Shown here piece by piece: positions 4,785 through 49,498 of a DNA stretch of 64,000 nt. A program made the position numbers and the translations under genes. The notes under the pieces are model-generated. The model worked only from the letters and a program-made list of their open reading frames with translations, was not told where the DNA came from and did not search any database. Positions within the stretch are counted from its first letter, which is position 1; every line of letters begins with the position of its first letter. The DNA is from Ornithinibacillus caprae (GTDB lineage Bacteria > Bacillota > Bacilli > Bacillales > Amphibacillaceae), in assembly GCF_009728145.1 (NCBI RefSeq), contig NZ_WOCA01000008.1, positions 1 to 64,000 of the forward strand. The letters are read 5' to 3'.

Positions 4785-4828
4785 GTATGGAATGTAAAGG
4801 TGTTTTACGCCTCCTTTATGTTCCATAC
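4785..4828 (+). other. Long hairpin after the binding-protein gene
   Basis: A ~16-bp stem with G-T wobbles (4785-4800 with 4813-4828) closes a short loop. No T-run follows. Hairpins in this position, behind the binding-protein gene of an ABC operon, usually protect the upstream mRNA or reduce read-through so the binding protein is made in excess. A comparable hairpin follows mdxE at 63593-63631. Confidence 0.55.
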
Positions 4829-4830
4829 AA

Positions 4831-4993
4831 TTTATCCCGCATATAACGGGCAGTATGACCCCAACTTCAAACCTACGAGTCGAAATCAAGGAGGTTAAGT
4901 GGGGAGCAACTGTCCGTAATTGTCCGATTCGTTCATCTAACAATCAATGGGGGATGAAGAAGCCCCCCACTGATTATAAAGGTTCACTTTATT
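4831..4993 (+). repeat. Structured intergenic repeat, full-length copy A
   Basis: Begins TTTATCCCGCATATAACGG and ends TTCACTTTAT. It holds two long stems: ACGGGCAGT (4846-4854) pairing with ACTGTCCGT with CCCCAACTT/AAGTGGGG inside it, and a G-rich hairpin GGGGG...CCCCC just before the end. Copy B at 32692-32853 has the same ends and architecture but different stem bases that still pair. It lies in the leader of the first permease gene. The frame open through it is not the permease start. Confidence 0.8.
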
Positions 4994-12270: not shown

Positions 12271-12386
12271 GAAAATCAGAACTAATTAGTTCTGATTTTC
12301 CATTGATGATACACTTTTATCTAAGCTTCTTCGTTTATCCTACAAATAACGGACAGTATGAGCCCACTGATTTAAGAATCACTTTA
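12271..12386 (+). repeat. Short relatives of the structured repeat, before/over the symporter stop
   Basis: Two pieces. The first is a 30-nt perfect palindrome at 12271-12300 followed by CATTGATGATACACTTTTATC, the same plan as 49379-49435 with a changed stem. The second is an internally deleted copy of the A/B element at 12334-12386 that begins TTTATCC, keeps ATAACGGACAGTA, and ends CCCACTGATTTAAGAATCACTTTAT. The last bases overlap the symporter stop codon. In 12023-12270 I see only the cre-like site, a -10-like TATAAT (12157-12162) and a weak 29-codon frame. Confidence 0.7.
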
Positions 12387-13583
12387 TGCAGCAGATTGTC
12401 GTTTTTTCTCCGAGGCGTCTACAACCGCGCTAGCTGTAGCGTCACCCATAACATTGACAGAGGTGCGCATCATATCGAGAATGCGATCGACACCTGCAAT
12501 CAATGCAATGCCTTCTAAAGGTAAAATAACAGCAGTTAGAACCATGATTAACATAACCATACCTGCACCAGGCACTCCTGCTGCACCAATGGAAGCAAGT
12601 GTAGCAATTAAAGCAACAGTTAAAATTTGAGCAAACGACAGTGACTCACCGAAGTATTGCGCAATAAATACAACAGCAATACCTTGGTACAGTGCTGTTC
12701 CATCCATATTAATGGTTGCTCCTAAAGGCAGGACAAAGCTACTTGTTTCCTTGGAAACTCCAAGATTTTCCTGGGTGTTTTTCATTGTTACAGGTAATGT
12801 TCCAGAGCTACTACATGTACTAAACGCAACAGTAGCTGCAGGGAAGATTCCTTTAAAAAACTGGATCGGATTAATTTTTCCAAGTGTTTTAACTGCAGTT
12901 CCGTAAACAATTGCTACATGAACAATACACGCGACAAGTAATGCTAATATCAATTTTATGAGTGGTAATAAGACGGCTGCTCCGTACTCACCAACAATAG
13001 GTGCAAGTAAACCAAAGATACCGATTGGAACTAGCTTCATAATGATGCCAGTAATTTTGTACATGATTTCAGCTAAACCTTCGAAGAATCGTTGAACAGG
13101 ATTTGCTTTTTCACCAACTAACTTAATACCAATTCCTAAGAAGAGAGCAAAGAAGATAATCTGCAGCATGCTACCTGTAGTTAATGCTTCAATTGGATTG
13201 GTGGGAATAATATTCAATAACGTTTCTACAACACCTTGGGTTTCAGCGGAAGGGACAGCTTCTTCATTTAGTGTTACATCAACCCCAGATCCTGGTTGAA
13301 ATACATAGCCAGCAATTAGTCCAATGGAGATGGCTATGAAACTAGTTACTAAATAATACGATATTGTTTTTCCACCTAAACGACCGAGTTTTTTTACGTC
13401 CCCTGCACTGGTTACTCCAACGATAATGGTAGAGAGGACCAATGGTACAATGATAAACATAATAAGACGTAAAAATAGATCCCCAAGCGGTGCAACATGG
13501 CTTGCTGAGTCACCAAAGATTAACCCAACAGCTACGGCTAATATAAATGCACCAACAATTTGATAAATAAAACTTTTCTTCAT
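12384..13583 (-). CDS. Dicarboxylate/amino acid:cation symporter (GltP/DctA family)
   Basis: Sodium- or proton-coupled importer of glutamate, aspartate or C4-dicarboxylates; 399 residues with 8 membrane helices and two re-entrant loops. The diagnostic motifs are present: the serine-rich tip CSSSGTLPVT and the cation/substrate site NMDGTALYQ, plus GVPGAGM in the second loop. AAAGGAG precedes the ATG. It stands alone, and a cre-like site at 13621-13636 lies in its leader. The substrate cannot be fixed without comparison. Its 3' end runs into a truncated copy of the intergenic repeat. Confidence 0.88.
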   Translation of the reverse strand: MKKSFIYQIVGAFILAVAVGLIFGDSASHVAPLGDLFLRLIMFIIVPLVLSTIIVGVTSAGDVKKLGRLGGKTISYYLVTSFIAISIGLIAGYVFQPGSGVDVTLNEEAVPSAETQGVVETLLNIIPTNPIEALTTGSMLQIIFFALFLGIGIKLVGEKANPVQRFFEGLAEIMYKITGIIMKLVPIGIFGLLAPIVGEYGAAVLLPLIKLILALLVACIVHVAIVYGTAVKTLGKINPIQFFKGIFPAATVAFSTCSSSGTLPVTMKNTQENLGVSKETSSFVLPLGATINMDGTALYQGIAVVFIAQYFGESLSFAQILTVALIATLASIGAAGVPGAGMVMLIMVLTAVILPLEGIALIAGVDRILDMMRTSVNVMGDATASAVVDASEKKRQSAA

Positions 13584-15094: not shown

Positions 15095-15385
15095 AATATT
15101 ATTAAGTCCTGAATAAATCAGGATTGGAAATTCCCTAAATTGCAGCTTCTTGAAAGCTGGGTAACTGTTATCTAATCTTTTTATACTCGGTTAACGCTGG
15201 CCGAGCTTTTAGAATTTCACTATCTAACCGCGGTACATGTTCCACCGGATGTTCTCTAACTTAAGCAACGTAAGCCCTACCTGCTCTTACGTCCTTGCGA
15301 CCCTGTAGTCGCGCCAGTGTGAATAAGCATCAACAAAAACATTGTAGAATGCCAGAACACTTATATGTTACTTTAGTAACTTTAC
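15095..15385 (-). ncRNA. Candidate structured noncoding RNA upstream of cvfB (possible IS200/IS605 omega-RNA-like remnant)
   Basis: The minus strand has TTGACA (15410-15415), 17 nt, then GATTAT (15387-15392), a plausible sigma-A promoter. Downstream lies a chain of hairpins: GTTAC/GTAAC, GCGAC/GTCGC, ACGTAAG/CTTACGT, CGGT/ACCG, CTCGG/CCGAG, CAGCTT/GAAGCTG and TCCTG/CAGGA. No frame longer than about 35 codons with a ribosome site crosses it. The overall look, including the subterminal hairpin, recalls RNA ends of TnpB-type IS200/IS605 elements, but no tnpB is present. Other readings are a long cvfB leader or an unnamed RNA. The rest of 15386-15580 shows nothing identifiable. Confidence 0.4.
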
Positions 15386-32691: not shown

Positions 32692-32853
32692 TTTATCCCG
32701 CATATAACTGGCAGTAAGCCTCCCACTTCAAACCTACGAGGTAAAACCAAGGAGGTTAAGTGGAGGATCAACTGCCAGTAAATGACCGATTCGTTCATCT
32801 AACAGTCAGTGGTGGGATGAATAATCCCACCACTGATTGAAGATTCACTTTAT
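32692..32853 (+). repeat. Structured intergenic repeat, full-length copy B
   Basis: Same ends (TTTATCCCGCATATAAC ... TTCACTTTAT) and plan as copy A at 4831-4993. Stem 1 pairs ACTGGCAGT (32707-32715) with ACTGCCAGT (32771-32779), enclosing CTCCCACTT/AAGTGGAG. Stem 2 pairs CAGTGGTGGGAT with ATCCCACCACTG. Compared with copy A, paired bases change together. It ends 18 nt before topB, so it would be part of the topB leader. The remainder of 32577-32691 holds nothing identifiable. Confidence 0.82.
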
Positions 32854-38007: not shown

Positions 38008-38116
38008 GATATTTCCCCCCTTTAACCTCTCAGAATTAAGCATAATAGTTAGAATTAAAGTTTTGTTTAAAATAATATAAAATTTAACTTAAAATTTGCT
38101 TAATAGGATGATTGAA

Positions 38117-41100
38117 ATGGAAAAAATACCAGGTTATCAAATGATGATCCAACAAATAGAAGGAGAAAGTTGGAGTTTATATAAAGCATTATCAGAGGAT
38201 GATCAACGTTTCGTTGGAGTGAAAAAGATAAATAATGACCTCTCTGAAGAATATGCCGCGGCAGAAACGGTTCATGAATATTACTTAACAAAGGAGCTAG
38301 TTGATGTAGATATTCTTCACCCGAATAAGTTGGAAAGAGTAGGTGAAAAGGCCTTTATTATTACGGAATATTTTGATGGATATACCTTAATGGATTGGAT
38401 GAATAAATATGGGGCAATGGATATTGGTACATTTCTTAAAATGGCAATACAACTTGCTGGAACTATTGAGAAAGTCCATCACAAGCATATTATCCACAAA
38501 TCACTACATCCCAAAAATATTCTATTAGAATCAAAAACAAATCACATTACATTAACGGCTTTTCATCAAGCAACTACTTTACCTACGGAAAGACATTTTC
38601 CGCATGTTAGTCCCTACCAATTTAAGGAGAAGGTTGCCTATATGTCTCCCGAGCAAACGGGACGTATGAATCGGAGCATGGATTATCGAGCAGATCTATA
38701 TGCACTGGGGGTTATTTATTATGAAATGATGATCGGTGAAGTACCTTTTAAACAATTAGGACCAGCAGAAATGATTCATGCACATTTAGCTAAAAAACCG
38801 AAGTCTCCACAAGAAATAAATCCTAAAATACCTGATACAATTTCTCGTATCATTTTAAAATTACTTGCTAAAAATCCAGATGACCGTTATCAAAGTGCAA
38901 ATAGTTTACGAACTGATTTAGAATTATGTCTAAAAGAGTTTAATCAATTTGGAGATATTTCCGAATTTGTTTTAGACCGAAATAGCAAACAAGGGATAAT
39001 GGAAAAGCAAACTAAATTATATGGAAGAAAAGAAGCTATTAATACATTGATTGATAAATTTAACGATGTTCAACGTGGATCGAACGAATTAATACTTGTT
39101 CCTGGACCTTCTGGAATAGGGAAAACAGCATTAGTAAATGAATTGCACAAACCATTGGCACGAGATAAGGGTTATTTTATTTCTGGAAAATTTATGAAAC
39201 TAAAAAAGCAAATTCCTTATGCACCTTTTGTACAAGCTTTTCAGGAGTTGGTTAATCAGATTTTAACAGAGGGATCTGATCGAATACAACAATGGAAACG
39301 AGTATTGGAAGAGGAGTTGGGGTCTAATGCTAATGTGATTGCAAACTTTATTCCAGAAATTGAATGGATTATTGGTACCCAGCCTAATCTAACCGAGCTA
39401 CCACCACAGGGCGTTCATAACCGATTCCGTCAAGCAATAAGAAAATTTGTAGGAATTTTTGCTCGGGAGGATCATCCGCTTGTCCTGTTTATGGATGATT
39501 TACAGTGGGCTGATGCAGCAACATTAGACTTAATTGATTACTTGTTATGTAGTTCTGACATTCATCACTTTCTAGTTGTTGGTGCTTACAGACAGGATGA
39601 AATACAAGTAGGACACCCATTTGAAGCAATGCTTGCCAAGTTAGAGGAAGAATCGGTTCCGATCACGGAAATTCCCGTAACGGCACTAAAATATGGACAT
39701 ATTAAGCAATGGATTAATGAAATGCTTTCATTGGATAAAGGTGATGAGGAATTTTTAGCAGCGTTTATGTACCGAGTAACACAGGGGAATCCTTTATTTA
39801 TGGTACAGCTTTTTCAAACGCTTCATGAGGAATCTGTATTTTACTTTGATGCGAGTACAGCGGAATGGCAAGCAAATTTAACACGGTTAAAAGAATTCTC
39901 CATCAAGGACGATATTCTTGAATTTATGATTAGGCGTATTGGGAAATTACCTCATGAGACCATATCCGTACTTCAGTATGCTTCCTGTTTTGGTAACCAG
40001 TTTGATTTAAAATCTCTTTCCTTCCTAACTCGAAATAGCTATGTAAAGATGGCAGAATTACTTTGGAAAGGGCTAGAAGAAGGCTTAATCATTCCATTAG
40101 ACCCTAGTTATAAATGGGTTTACCCAAATGAAAGAATCTCATTTATTGATTCCAATCCACCTCAATATATTTTTCTCCATGATAAGGTACAACAAGCGTT
40201 TTATATGACCATGTCAGAGGAAAGACGGATTGAAAATCACTTGAATATTGGAAAAGAATTACTTAAACGTTATTCAGCGGAGAAATTAGAAGAACATATC
40301 TTTGAAATTGTAAATCATTTAAATATAAGTAGAGATAAGTTAAGTGATCACGAGAGATTTGGCTTGATTCGCTGGAATTGGATGGCCGGAGAACGTGCGA
40401 AAAAAAGTGCAGCATCAGAAGCAGCATTAGAGTTCTTTAAGGTTGGTCATGAACTTCTTCCGAAGGATCGTTGGCAAAATCACTATGAATTAACATTTAA
40501 TCTTTTGCTAGGACTTGGAGAAACACTCTATTTAAATAATCTGTTTGAGGATGCAGAGAAAATATTTAATGAATTGGTACAACAGGCTAAATCTCGATTG
40601 GATCAATTAACTGTTTATAACTTAAAAATTGCATTGTATACACATATTCATGAAGTGGAAAAGGCTGTAGATACTGGCTTGGATGGCTTGAAGTTATTCG
40701 GCTGGAACATTCGAAAAACTCCTAGTAAATTATCAGTCGGGATTGAATTCTTACGGACAAAATTAGCTCTCGCTAAGAAGCAGACTGGGGATTTGTTAGA
40801 TCTTCCATTTGTAAAAGCAAAAGATCATCGGCAGGTTTTACGTACATTGATTAATAGCAATGGTCCAGCATATCATGTGAATCAAAATCTGGCGACTGTA
40901 TTAATGCTTCGAGCAATTCGGTTTATGTTGAAATATGGAGATATGGACATTTCAGCTCTTGTTTATAATAATTATGCATTGACATTAAGTGCAGGGTTTA
41001 ATGATTATAATGGAAGCATCTACTTTGGAAAGTTAGCTATGGAACACAGTGAAAAATACCATGACACAAGTATAAAAGCTCGGGTGAATTTCGTCTATGG

Positions 41101-43345
41101 TAGCTTTGTAGGTCACTGGAAACATCATTTAAAATATAGCGTGGAGCACCTAGAACGCTCTCAGCAAATGTGTATTGAATCTGGAAATCTTCATTTAGCA
41201 GGAGCAAACGGGGCATTTATTGGCTTACTTCTGTATATTAAAGGAGATCAGTTGAAAGTGGTTGCAAGAGGAATTGAAAGACAATTAACGTTTGCGAAAC
41301 AACATGAATATGCATTGACCGATAATTTCTTGACAGAAATCTTATACTGGATTGACATATTTTCTAATGAAGATTCAAAGTTGAATTGGGATTACCAAGA
41401 GTTTGCAGAAGATATACCAGCAACCATCATGCATTACACAATTCGGTTGCAGATGACTTATTTATTAAATGCAAAACAAAAAGCAATGGAAGCAATTGAA
41501 AAAATAGACCATCTTGTTGACCAATCACATGTACTAGTCATTACGCCAGATTATTACTATTATCATGCTTTATGGTTAACGAGATTAATTCGAACTGGAG
41601 ATATTAATATCTCAACCGGAAGGAAAAAGTTGAAAAGGAATTTAGCTAAACTTAAAAAATGGGCGATCCAATCACCTGTAAATTATAAACATAAATATCT
41701 CTTGGTAAAAGCCGAATGGGAACAGTGTACGAAAAATGATCCTTCGAAAATCTATAGTGATTCAATCGAATCTGCTATAGAAAACGGATTTTTACAAGAT
41801 ACAGCGATTGCTTACGAATGTGCTGGGAATTATTATAAGAAACAAAACATGTCTATCATTGCCACAACATATTTTAGCAATGCCTATGTAGCGTATCGTA
41901 AATGGGGTGCAGAGCGAAAAGCTTCTTTACTCTATCAAGAAAACCTAGAATTCATCAACACTCCTAAACAAGAAAATGGGATTGGTTATGGGGAAGGATT
42001 ACTTGATATTGATGCAGCATTACAGGCTGCTGCTGCTATTTCGGATGAAATGAGATTTGAGCAATTATTGGCAAAAGCAATGAGAATTGTGCTCACAAAC
42101 GCAGGAGCAGAATATGTATGTTTTCTATTAAATCGCGATCATAAGCTTCAAGCAGCTGCAAGTAATGATGTAATTGGTGGAGTACATGTTTTTGAGGAAT
42201 TAAAAACCCTTGATGAAGTTTATTTATCCCAAACGATTGTAAACTATGTGTACCAAAGCCATAAGCCAGTTGTATTAGATAATGCTTTTAGTCAAGGTGA
42301 TTTTATAGAGGATGAATATATTAAACAAAGCGGTGTAAAATCGGTCCTTTGTTTACCACTTTTATATCAAAATACGTTAACAGGGGTCTTGTATTTAGAA
42401 AATAATCAGTCTACCCATGTATTTACGGAGGGGCGTTTGGAACTCTTATCCGTCATTGCATCCCAAGTAGCTATTGCAATTGAAAATGCTAACTTATATG
42501 CAAACTTGGAGGAGAAAGTAACCGAAAGAACGGCATTACTATATGAAGCCAATAAAAACTTGCAGCAAGCAAATGAATCTCTAGAAAAATCGGAAGAGAA
42601 TAGACGTCGAATGCTCTCAAATATTACCCATGATCTAAGATCTCCACTTGCAGCTGTAAAAGGATATATTGATATTATGTTAGAGGGTTTATTGGAAAAT
42701 CCTGAACAACATTATCACTATATAAAGGCAGCAAAATCACGGATCGTATCCTTAGATGGGTTGGTGCAAGACTTATTTGACTTAGCAAAACTAGAGTCAG
42801 GGGATATCACGCTATCCTTGGAAGCAGTTCCGATCGACCGATTGTTTCAACGACTCTGCAGTCAATCAGAATGGGAAATTCACAATTCTGGGCTGACATT
42901 TGAGTGGAACATAGAGGATGATGAAAGAGAAGTTTACCCTTTAGTAGAAGTAGATGTCGGACGAATGGAACAAGTAATGGCTAATCTTGTTTCTAATGCA
43001 ATTCAACATATGGAACAGGGATATATACGTATTAGTTTGGATCTAAAAAGTAAAAAGGAAGCAATTTTTGTTGTGGAAGACCAAGGAGTAGGAATTCCAG
43101 AAGCAGAACAACCACTAATCTTTGAGCGTTCCTATACGAAAAGAAGGAGGGGGAAAGAAAAGGGGAATGGATTAGGGCTCGCTATAACGAAAGAGATTAT
43201 ACAACTCCATCAAGGAAAAATTTGGGTTGAAAGTAAAAAGGGAGAGGGAGCGAAGTTTTACTTTTCATTACCAGTAGTAAATATTGAACCATTGTATGAA
43301 ACAGAGGAATTATTTATCCGAACGGGCGGTAAGTCGCTCCACTGA
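38117..43345 (+). CDS. Giant multidomain sensor: pseudokinase-AAA ATPase-helical repeats-GAF-histidine kinase
   Basis: About 1742 residues. Domains: protein-kinase-like fold (about 1-280); AAA/NACHT-like ATPase with Walker A GPSGIGKT (about 330) and Walker B LVLFMDDLQWAD (about 460); a long TPR-like helical region (about 650-1280); GAF (about 1300-1460); histidine kinase with phospho-His in NITHDLRSPL (about 1502) and HATPase (VEDQGVGIPE, GNGLGLAI). The kinase lacks key residues: HRD reads H127-K-S129 and DFG reads A148-F-H150, although Lys36 is kept, so it is likely a pseudokinase. Membrane segments are absent. ATG 38117 has a weak AGGA; TTG 38096 and ATG 38108 are alternatives. The last ~9 codons are made of a truncated intergenic repeat. 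Confidence 0.85.
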   Translation: MEKIPGYQMMIQQIEGESWSLYKALSEDDQRFVGVKKINNDLSEEYAAAETVHEYYLTKELVDVDILHPNKLERVGEKAFIITEYFDGYTLMDWMNKYGAMDIGTFLKMAIQLAGTIEKVHHKHIIHKSLHPKNILLESKTNHITLTAFHQATTLPTERHFPHVSPYQFKEKVAYMSPEQTGRMNRSMDYRADLYALGVIYYEMMIGEVPFKQLGPAEMIHAHLAKKPKSPQEINPKIPDTISRIILKLLAKNPDDRYQSANSLRTDLELCLKEFNQFGDISEFVLDRNSKQGIMEKQTKLYGRKEAINTLIDKFNDVQRGSNELILVPGPSGIGKTALVNELHKPLARDKGYFISGKFMKLKKQIPYAPFVQAFQELVNQILTEGSDRIQQWKRVLEEELGSNANVIANFIPEIEWIIGTQPNLTELPPQGVHNRFRQAIRKFVGIFAREDHPLVLFMDDLQWADAATLDLIDYLLCSSDIHHFLVVGAYRQDEIQVGHPFEAMLAKLEEESVPITEIPVTALKYGHIKQWINEMLSLDKGDEEFLAAFMYRVTQGNPLFMVQLFQTLHEESVFYFDASTAEWQANLTRLKEFSIKDDILEFMIRRIGKLPHETISVLQYASCFGNQFDLKSLSFLTRNSYVKMAELLWKGLEEGLIIPLDPSYKWVYPNERISFIDSNPPQYIFLHDKVQQAFYMTMSEERRIENHLNIGKELLKRYSAEKLEEHIFEIVNHLNISRDKLSDHERFGLIRWNWMAGERAKKSAASEAALEFFKVGHELLPKDRWQNHYELTFNLLLGLGETLYLNNLFEDAEKIFNELVQQAKSRLDQLTVYNLKIALYTHIHEVEKAVDTGLDGLKLFGWNIRKTPSKLSVGIEFLRTKLALAKKQTGDLLDLPFVKAKDHRQVLRTLINSNGPAYHVNQNLATVLMLRAIRFMLKYGDMDISALVYNNYALTLSAGFNDYNGSIYFGKLAMEHSEKYHDTSIKARVNFVYGSFVGHWKHHLKYSVEHLERSQQMCIESGNLHLAGANGAFIGLLLYIKGDQLKVVARGIERQLTFAKQHEYALTDNFLTEILYWIDIFSNEDSKLNWDYQEFAEDIPATIMHYTIRLQMTYLLNAKQKAMEAIEKIDHLVDQSHVLVITPDYYYYHALWLTRLIRTGDINISTGRKKLKRNLAKLKKWAIQSPVNYKHKYLLVKAEWEQCTKNDPSKIYSDSIESAIENGFLQDTAIAYECAGNYYKKQNMSIIATTYFSNAYVAYRKWGAERKASLLYQENLEFINTPKQENGIGYGEGLLDIDAALQAAAAISDEMRFEQLLAKAMRIVLTNAGAEYVCFLLNRDHKLQAAASNDVIGGVHVFEELKTLDEVYLSQTIVNYVYQSHKPVVLDNAFSQGDFIEDEYIKQSGVKSVLCLPLLYQNTLTGVLYLENNQSTHVFTEGRLELLSVIASQVAIAIENANLYANLEEKVTERTALLYEANKNLQQANESLEKSEENRRRMLSNITHDLRSPLAAVKGYIDIMLEGLLENPEQHYHYIKAAKSRIVSLDGLVQDLFDLAKLESGDITLSLEAVPIDRLFQRLCSQSEWEIHNSGLTFEWNIEDDEREVYPLVEVDVGRMEQVMANLVSNAIQHMEQGYIRISLDLKSKKEAIFVVEDQGVGIPEAEQPLIFERSYTKRRRGKEKGNGLGLAITKEIIQLHQGKIWVESKKGEGAKFYFSLPVVNIEPLYETEELFIRTGGKSLH

Positions 43346-43362
43346 TTGAAAGTTCACTTATT
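43321..43362 (+). repeat. Truncated structured repeat forming the 3' end of the giant kinase gene
   Basis: AACGGGCGGTAAGTCGCTCC followed by ACTGATTGAAAGTTCACTTA matches the two ends of the A/B repeat with the middle deleted. It supplies the last residues (RTGGKSLH) and the stop codon of the kinase gene. Confidence 0.65.
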
Positions 43363-49378: not shown

Positions 49379-49498
49379 GAAAATCCGAACTAAAACTAAT
49401 TAGTTCGGATTTTCCATTGATTGATATACTTTATCACGTATAGTTGAAGTTCCACCACCTCAACTCCACGATGTGAAACCAATGAAGATGCACTTTAT
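49379..49498 (+). repeat. Degenerate structured repeats between long repeat and cheR
   Basis: A 14-bp stem AAAATCCGAACTAA/TTAGTTCGGATTTT (49380-49393 with 49400-49413) is followed by CCATTGATTGATATACTTTATC, the same plan as 12271-12322 with a matching A-to-C/T-to-G change in both arms. Then a shortened A/B-like element runs from TTTATCACG to GCACTTTATC and touches the cheR stop. Confidence 0.65.

Follow-up and report, generated by a model that had tools for sequence, protein, structure and literature searches.

Two copies of a structured repeat lie in the 64,000-bp stretch of the Ornithinibacillus caprae genome analyzed here (contig NZ_WOCA01000008.1, positions 1 to 64,000; hereafter the window), and a first-pass annotation suggested that they could be regulatory RNA elements, MITE-like elements, or both. 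Both were found on the forward strand where they had been reported. Copy A occupies 4831–4992 (162 bp, from TTTAT to TTTAT; the earlier range of 4831–4993 is one T too long) and matches the covariance model with 154.9 bits and an E value of 5e-36; copy B occupies 32692–32853, matches with 173.5 bits, and is also supported by its own fold. The two share ends and plan, aligning by BLAST at 84.8% over 164 columns, and their stem 1 pairs as first described, ACGGGCAGT with ACTGTCCGT in copy A (including one G.T pair) and ACTGGCAGT with ACTGCCAGT in copy B. A sugar-transporter-like ABC operon surrounds copy A, which follows an SBP_bac_1 gene, precedes a BPD_transp_1 gene, and has a separate palindrome just ahead of it at about 4785–4828. 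Copy B is upstream of a topoisomerase gene.

Full copies are 150–163 bp long and follow the plan TTTAT[CCCGC...TTCAC]TTTAT with two hairpin arms, the order being TTTAT, CCCGCATRTAA, hairpin 1, linker, hairpin 2, and TTTAT. In copy A, the left TTTAT (4831–4835, forward strand as for all parts), which we take as the target pentamer, is followed by hairpin 1 at 4846–4917, whose outer and inner stems (in the general plan, ACGGGCAGT/ACTGCCCGT and CCCCCACTT/AAGTGGGGG) are supported by covariation and by the fold. A conserved linker (AAATGTCCGATT in the plan) leads to hairpin 2 at the right end (4931–4987; in the plan, GTTCA..CTAACAATCAGTGGGGG / CCCCCACTGATTGAAG..TTCAC), which is supported by covariation and of which only the inner part, about 4942–4975, was paired as modelled in the fold of copy A alone. 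The right TTTAT is at 4988–4992. Among 60 copies from eight other genomes, the left TTTAT is present in 52 as called and in two more at a one-base offset, and 55 end in the right TTTAT as called; few variants of either pentamer were available for comparing a target duplication with an element-borne right TTTAT. The flanks of these 60 copies show A/T richness only and no longer shared sequence. Terminal inverted repeats are absent when the ends are read directly, with CCCGCATATAAC at one end and GTGAACC or GTGAATC inward from the other. TAA precedes both hairpins in most copies, and genome G323 has CAAC instead of TAAC at hairpin 1. Two subfamilies occur in O. caprae, with ATATAA or ATGTAA ahead of hairpin 1, the ATGTAA copies forming a cluster of close relatives.

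The first-pass annotation took the conservation of shape under sequence drift as a sign of selection, and the effect is real and strong. As single-stranded DNA, copies A and B fold with z = -4.45 and z = -10.05, respectively, and none of 200 shuffles of either was as stable. Among 23 aligned O. caprae copies, 93.4% of stem cells are paired (89.7% when shuffled, 34–45% in slid controls) and 28 cells carry double changes, compared with 11.6 in shuffles. The signal is larger in 29 full-length copies hand-picked to span many genomes, in which 94.6% of stem cells are paired (86.0% shuffled, 38–48% slid), 23 of 41 pairs have a double change (shuffled mean 10.8), and 82 such cells are found against 25.3. 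None of 500 shuffles of the 29-copy set reached the observed value on any covariation measure; when the sequences are related, such a count does not amount to a probability, but the slid control agrees with it in direction. The outer helix near the left end is weaker, at 78.9% paired. Whole stems are swapped across genomes (ACGGGCAGT/ACTGCCCGT, ACTGGCAGT/ACTGCCAGT, AGGTGCCGT/ACGGCACCT, and AGGGGCAGT/ACTGCCCCT), and the genome-wide covariance search proposed as a check gave 45 matches in O. caprae, the 23 aligned copies covarying above shuffles. The hairpin shape of the repeat is clearly under selection.

Selection on shape invites an explanation as a cis-regulatory leader RNA kept for gene control, and this would account for the covariation as well as for copies A and B, each of which lies ahead of a gene on the coding strand, as was originally observed; excerpts of PMC3446304 also describe copies of bcr1, a repeat of the Bacillus cereus group, as often transcribed in UTRs. 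The placement of copies A and B is not a rule of the family. Gene-relative mapping, set in advance as the test that could refute a regulatory role, revealed no fixed orientation: the downstream gene is co-oriented in only 16 of 41 copies in O. caprae and 30 of 59 in eight other genomes, and the leader-RNA reading fails on this account. The upstream gene is co-oriented in 18 of 41 and 36 of 59, all of these figures resting on simple ORF calls rather than curated annotation. Copy A is missing in all seven genus relatives that match both of its flanks (10 relatives searched). Its gene pair is present in all seven; the five spacers that were read are short and have palindromes of other kinds, while for the remaining two the match coordinates allow a spacer of just 57 and 66 bases. 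An exact empty site was not recovered. Rfam gave no match at copies A or B, its only match in the window being to the small RNA BsrC at 15255–15342 (75.1 bits). Neither a fixed place and strand relative to genes nor a known RNA family was found. Stem cells with G-T and with A-C number 33 to 20 in A3 and 18 to 23 in A1, no clear excess of G-T, and copy orientation is set by replication, as described below. We therefore reject regulatory RNA as the function of the repeat and regard a leader-RNA role as highly improbable. Individual copies may be transcribed, by analogy with the bcr1 copies often found in UTRs in excerpts of PMC3446304.

The distribution of the repeat is that of a mobile element. 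In O. caprae there are 44 BLAST matches and 45 covariance-model matches at E <= 0.001, the model search having scored 150 of 1409 first-look candidates, and identity between the closest pairs among the 23 aligned copies is up to 0.994. The repeat was found in 110 of 159 genomes of the family (35 of 46 genera), in 138 of 397 genomes sampled from the order (66 of 132 genera), and in 50 of 398 genomes in a class sample that overlaps that of the order (30 of 145 genera), all of which are lower bounds because filters were strict and few candidates were scored per genome. Model matches number 144 in G043, 119 in G478, 96 in G236, and 56 in G495, and in G141, where one mismatch at most was allowed, 294 left ends were counted and identical copies occur at different places. 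A scan for the exact 17-base left end returned 139 occurrences in 104 stretches, of which 85 occurrences also match the other two parts loosely, and its named carriers include Virgibacillus, Lentibacillus, Oceanobacillus, and one Sporosarcina MAG; 17-base matches in unrelated phyla lack the remaining parts of the element and appear to be coincidental. Full or partial copies are present on plasmids of Pseudalkalibacillus hwajinpoensis, Peribacillus asahii, Cytobacillus oceanisediminis, and Niallia taxi, and phage records had no match to the repeat. Outside the Bacilli, a Klebsiella grimontii plasmid (CP079755.1, 221561–221631) matches in part, over 47% of the query at 78.7% identity; contamination, a chimeric record, or a transfer could account for this. 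Copy number, spread, and the lack of copy A in relatives leave very little doubt that the repeats are mobile, and the MITE-like alternative of the first-pass annotation is to that extent borne out, for an element without terminal inverted repeats. The repeats are non-coding and non-autonomous.

The derivatives expected in the window are also there. A 54-bp deletion derivative at 12334–12387 (forward strand; BLAST and reading of the sequence) keeps both ends, the covariance model giving only E 0.83 for 12316–12387, and its right TTTAT supplies the TAA stop of a sodium:dicarboxylate symporter gene at 12384–13583 on the reverse strand. Two decayed short derivatives, likewise on the forward strand, lie at 43313–43361 (BLAST of the right end and reading of the sequence) and at 49430–49498 (two short BLAST pieces and reading of the sequence); the covariance model did not report the first, nor the second as such. 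Partial forms are common and include deletions between CCCCCACT repeats (12334–12387 in the window, and loci L132, L135, L139, L140, and L142), those in L132 and L142 being short forms that resemble 12334–12387.

The stop of a long ORF at 38096–43345 falls inside the decayed copy at 43313–43361, which gives its last codons and stop. More generally, the right TTTAT provides the TAA stop (TTA on the forward strand) of a convergent ORF in 14 of 101 copies, including 12384–12386 in the window. This overlap suggests insertion at stop codons without loss, and some of the ORFs ending at a right TTTAT may have been cut short by the element.

Longer forms of the repeat also occur. A third hairpin is present in loci L126, L129, and L136; in the longer subfamily it is of the GGCCTTTAGGTCATACCCTT type and lies between hairpins 1 and 2 (L126 2713–2880, L129 6115–6301, and Virgibacillus loci such as L013 and L057). 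Nested O. caprae variants in L380 (C22:229265) and L361 (C18:798) contain an extra palindromic module with CGCATTGTCGGCA and, in L380, also GCACTAGCACGTCCTGTGCG inside hairpin 1. A sequence similar to the nested module, CGTCCTGTGCGTCGTAA, is beside a copy in L136, and a related stretch occurs in Lentibacillus halodurans L061.

Some units are in tandem and share one TTTAT, as in L122 and in neighbors on G143:C139. Arrays with a period of about 148–155 bp were observed at G141:C8:285453–286066, which has five evenly spaced left ends, and at G143:C139:39666–40599. Tandem arrays with a common TTTAT would be expected if a tyrosine recombinase recombined the folded single strand site-specifically, in the manner of integron cassettes, with TTTAT as the crossover, and a folded-strand substrate would presumably also yield a bias with respect to the replication fork. 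Such recombination is quite unlikely in view of the copies scattered singly at TTTAT sites, which have no longer shared flank and only A/T richness among the 60 copies.

The unexpected result was orientation relative to replication, which gives a strong clue to how the repeat moves. In four genomes, 103 copies lie along the leading strand and 32 against it (44:15, 31:12, 17:4, and 11:1), these being drawn from 148 chromosomal places among the best of 415 matches, with 13 in zones of ambiguous replication direction dropped and two places on a plasmid contig left out. The leading strand was assigned from sampled GC skew and ORF direction; for G236 the assignment rested in part on a dnaA-like motif where the contig begins and on a terminus assumed to lie about midway. 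Of 40 sampled stretches, 32 were used to count intergenic TTTAT sites (8 were omitted, mostly for ambiguous direction), and the leading strand has 313 of these sites against 379 for the lagging strand; the supply of sites therefore does not explain the bias, which has p 2e-13 against this null. In G141, 92 copies are oriented with replication and 8 against among 100 listed of the 294 places; within the same 100, the counts are 68 and 7 with tandem copies collapsed and 84 and 8 without contig C7 (8 places), which has weak skew, evenly split genes, and an ambiguous replication direction. Two further copies against replication, in L426, are additional to the G141 count.

Gene direction does not explain this bias either, as copies are oriented with replication between head-on genes (14:0), convergent genes (14:4), and divergent genes (14:1) as well as co-directional ones (24:6). 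These counts cover 77 of 85 copies, the remainder being in an ambiguous zone (3), having a repeated flank (2), or lacking a gene call on one side (3). Copies outside co-directional gene pairs are oriented 42:5 with replication, 37:5 without C7, and 20:1 without G141. In the five genomes tested, the copies are thus oriented by the replication fork independently of gene direction. Since they follow the leading-strand orientation, their top strand, with TTTAT at the 5' flank, is in the lagging-strand template. Excerpts of PMC6006769 and PMC5371812 report lagging-strand-template orientation for IS608 and ISDra2, and excerpts of PMC5371812 also note orientation bias in several further IS families that contact the beta clamp; the pattern is therefore strong evidence without being unique to single-strand insertion.

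The latter families bear on a different model, in which the repeat is a classical MITE that a DDE transposase moves in double-stranded form, duplicating TTTAT, with the bias coming from contact of this enzyme with the beta clamp or the fork. The TTTAT on both sides of the repeat resembles a 5-bp duplication, clamp-binding transposons with a bias are described in excerpts of PMC5371812, and bcr1 is listed among MITEs in excerpts of PMC3733652. We nevertheless consider a DDE transposase unlikely, given the absence of terminal inverted repeats, the strong constraint on two subterminal hairpins, and a bias as high as 92 of the 100 G141 places listed (of 294).

We favor single-strand, fork-coupled movement, with a probability of about 0.7, on the combined evidence of copy number, spread, the absence of copy A in relatives, the sharing of TTTAT in tandem units, covariation, and orientation with replication. 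A need to fold as single-stranded DNA in order to move best accounts for the structure. Under this model, the exposed lagging-strand template would fold at the fork, with hairpins 1 and 2 marking the element ends, and a trans-acting single-strand transposase or recombinase would cut after each TTTAT; the cut strand would then be joined 3' of another TTTAT exposed on the lagging-strand template. The short TAA ahead of each hairpin may belong to a guide that pairs with the TTA of TTTAT, a pairing that is not strict judging from CAAC in G323, where others have TAAC. In excerpts of PMC6006769 and PMC5371812, IS608 and ISDra2 are described as using the lagging-strand template, with the target adjoining the left end and guides located at the feet of subterminal hairpins. 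Compensatory changes in the repeat would be kept because the proposed enzyme reads the folded shape, and effects on nearby genes, such as operon spacing and altered 3' ends, would be by-products.

Set against single-strand movement are the lack of a Y1 gene bounded by the element ends and the truncated PF01797 remnants that are all G141 has. PF01797 (Y1) matched in 119 of 159 family genomes, and none of the Y1 genes was bounded on both sides by element ends in the 34 and 63 best-scoring loci inspected (33 common to both); canonical Y1 elements were rejected as the source of the repeat for this reason. Copies or relics near a Y1 gene in L160, L267, L285, and L291 are on one side of it and 230 bp or more away, the other side lying beyond the contig end in L160 and L267, and a copy in L285 is about 440 bp from a RAYT-like gene. 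PF01797 was absent from 20 of 110 element-bearing family genomes, from 10 of 62 with 12 or more copies, and, among 19 genomes tested, from G043, G449, G468, and G478. Its weak co-occurrence with the element (90 of 110 genomes with the element vs 29 of 49 without; Fisher p 0.005) could be explained by shared ancestry and genome size. Sampled copies in G043, G449, and G478 have nearest-neighbor identities of at most 0.975, and because they are older, the enzyme may have been lost in these genomes. But in G141, with its identical copies at different places, PF01797 has two matches only, in L274 and L291, both truncated or broken.

O. caprae has two intact Y1 genes of RAYT-like length, in L113 (C22:272765) and L114 (C22:418682). 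They are flanked by their own palindromes, of GGACCTGACCCC type and GTGCCTGTCAC type, which are unlike the repeat and do not occur in the 64-kb window, and the covariance model found no match in L113–L115; since other palindromes flank them, these RAYT-like genes were rejected as movers. Around solo left ends in O. caprae (44 places; 8 of 30 loci inspected), no longer gene-bearing element was found, only short, truncated, or nested derivatives. In L265, L169, and L281, around 1935–2058, the model did match an IS605-type element, with 19–26 bits, at the end next to tnpA; there the IS end hairpin (CTCTTCAAGCCTGTGAAGG...GGTAAGGGGGAGAT) aligns with hairpin 1, and the IS end is flanked by TTTAAC or TTTTAAC. 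The three loci contain one IS type and so count as a single weak lead, and the resemblance could be convergence.

It is possible, though less likely than not, that a gene-less element of ~155 bp, present across many families of the Bacilli, moves at replication forks as a folded single strand by means of an enzyme other than a recognizable Y1 protein; the mover could be a single-strand transposase or recombinase of a kind not yet described, or a host replication or repair protein recruited to the role. The search for the missing enzyme becomes concrete, since genomes whose copies are identical or nearly so, such as G141 and G495, should have carried it until not long ago. More broadly, strong covariation in repeats can reflect selection for DNA mobility and not RNA regulation.

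Among known systems, palindrome-associated elements are the non-autonomous derivatives of IS200/IS605. The repeat resembles them in having no inverted terminal repeats, subterminal hairpins, a fixed short target 5' of the left end, and lagging-template orientation, the last in five genomes. It differs in that the inspected loci contained no IS200/IS605 element with the ends of the repeat as its boundaries, nor, among the best-scoring ones, a Y1 (HUH) element with matching ends. Hairpin 1 is also much larger than the 20–25 nt hairpins that excerpts of PMC6006769 give for IS608 and ISDra2. The REP sequences moved by RAYTs are likewise palindromic, non-coding, intergenic, and of high copy number (excerpts of PMC3733652 and PMC6006769); the repeat differs in its length of 150–160 bp, its two arms, and its TTTAT target, and at L113 and L114 no RAYT gene flanked by the same repeat was found. 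EFAR and similar MITE-like repeats of the Firmicutes are listed beside bcr1 among MITEs in excerpts of PMC3733652. Classical MITEs have terminal inverted repeats, which direct reading of the ends did not find here.

The bcr1 repeat, which Okstad reportedly described in 2004 as 155 bp long, flanked by TTTAT at each end, and present in many partial copies, is similar in size and ends to our full copies (150–163 bp, with TTTAT on the left in 52 of 60 and on the right in 55 of 60). As described in excerpts of PMC6542083, PMC3446304, and PMC2267715, bcr1 and the repeat are alike, by description only, in a length of ~155 bp, TTTAT ends, intergenic location, tens of copies per genome, structure, MITE-like character, and mobility. 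The repeat bcr1 (Bacillus cereus repeat 1) belongs to group A together with bcr2 and bcr3. A search of open-licence papers for the first ten letters of the repeat returned, among the matches listed, only papers on unrelated subjects by title, and the excerpts of open-licence bcr1 literature (PMC6542083, PMC3446304, PMC2267715, PMC3733652, and PMC8725734) mention neither an orientation by replication strand nor carriers beyond the B. cereus group. The plasmid searches gave no match to a plasmid of that group, which has no bearing on identity with bcr1 either way. We use the name bcr1-like because the two repeats were compared by description only and because the restriction to the B. cereus group ascribed to bcr1 fails for the repeat, whose carriers make up 66 of 132 genera in the order sample and 30 of 145 in the class sample. 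Whereas the literature excerpts treat bcr1-type repeats as a speciality of the B. cereus group whose mode of movement is only guessed, the present survey widens the host range of bcr1-like repeats to many genera and adds a strong clue to mechanism, namely an orientation that tracks the replication fork even where genes point the opposite way.
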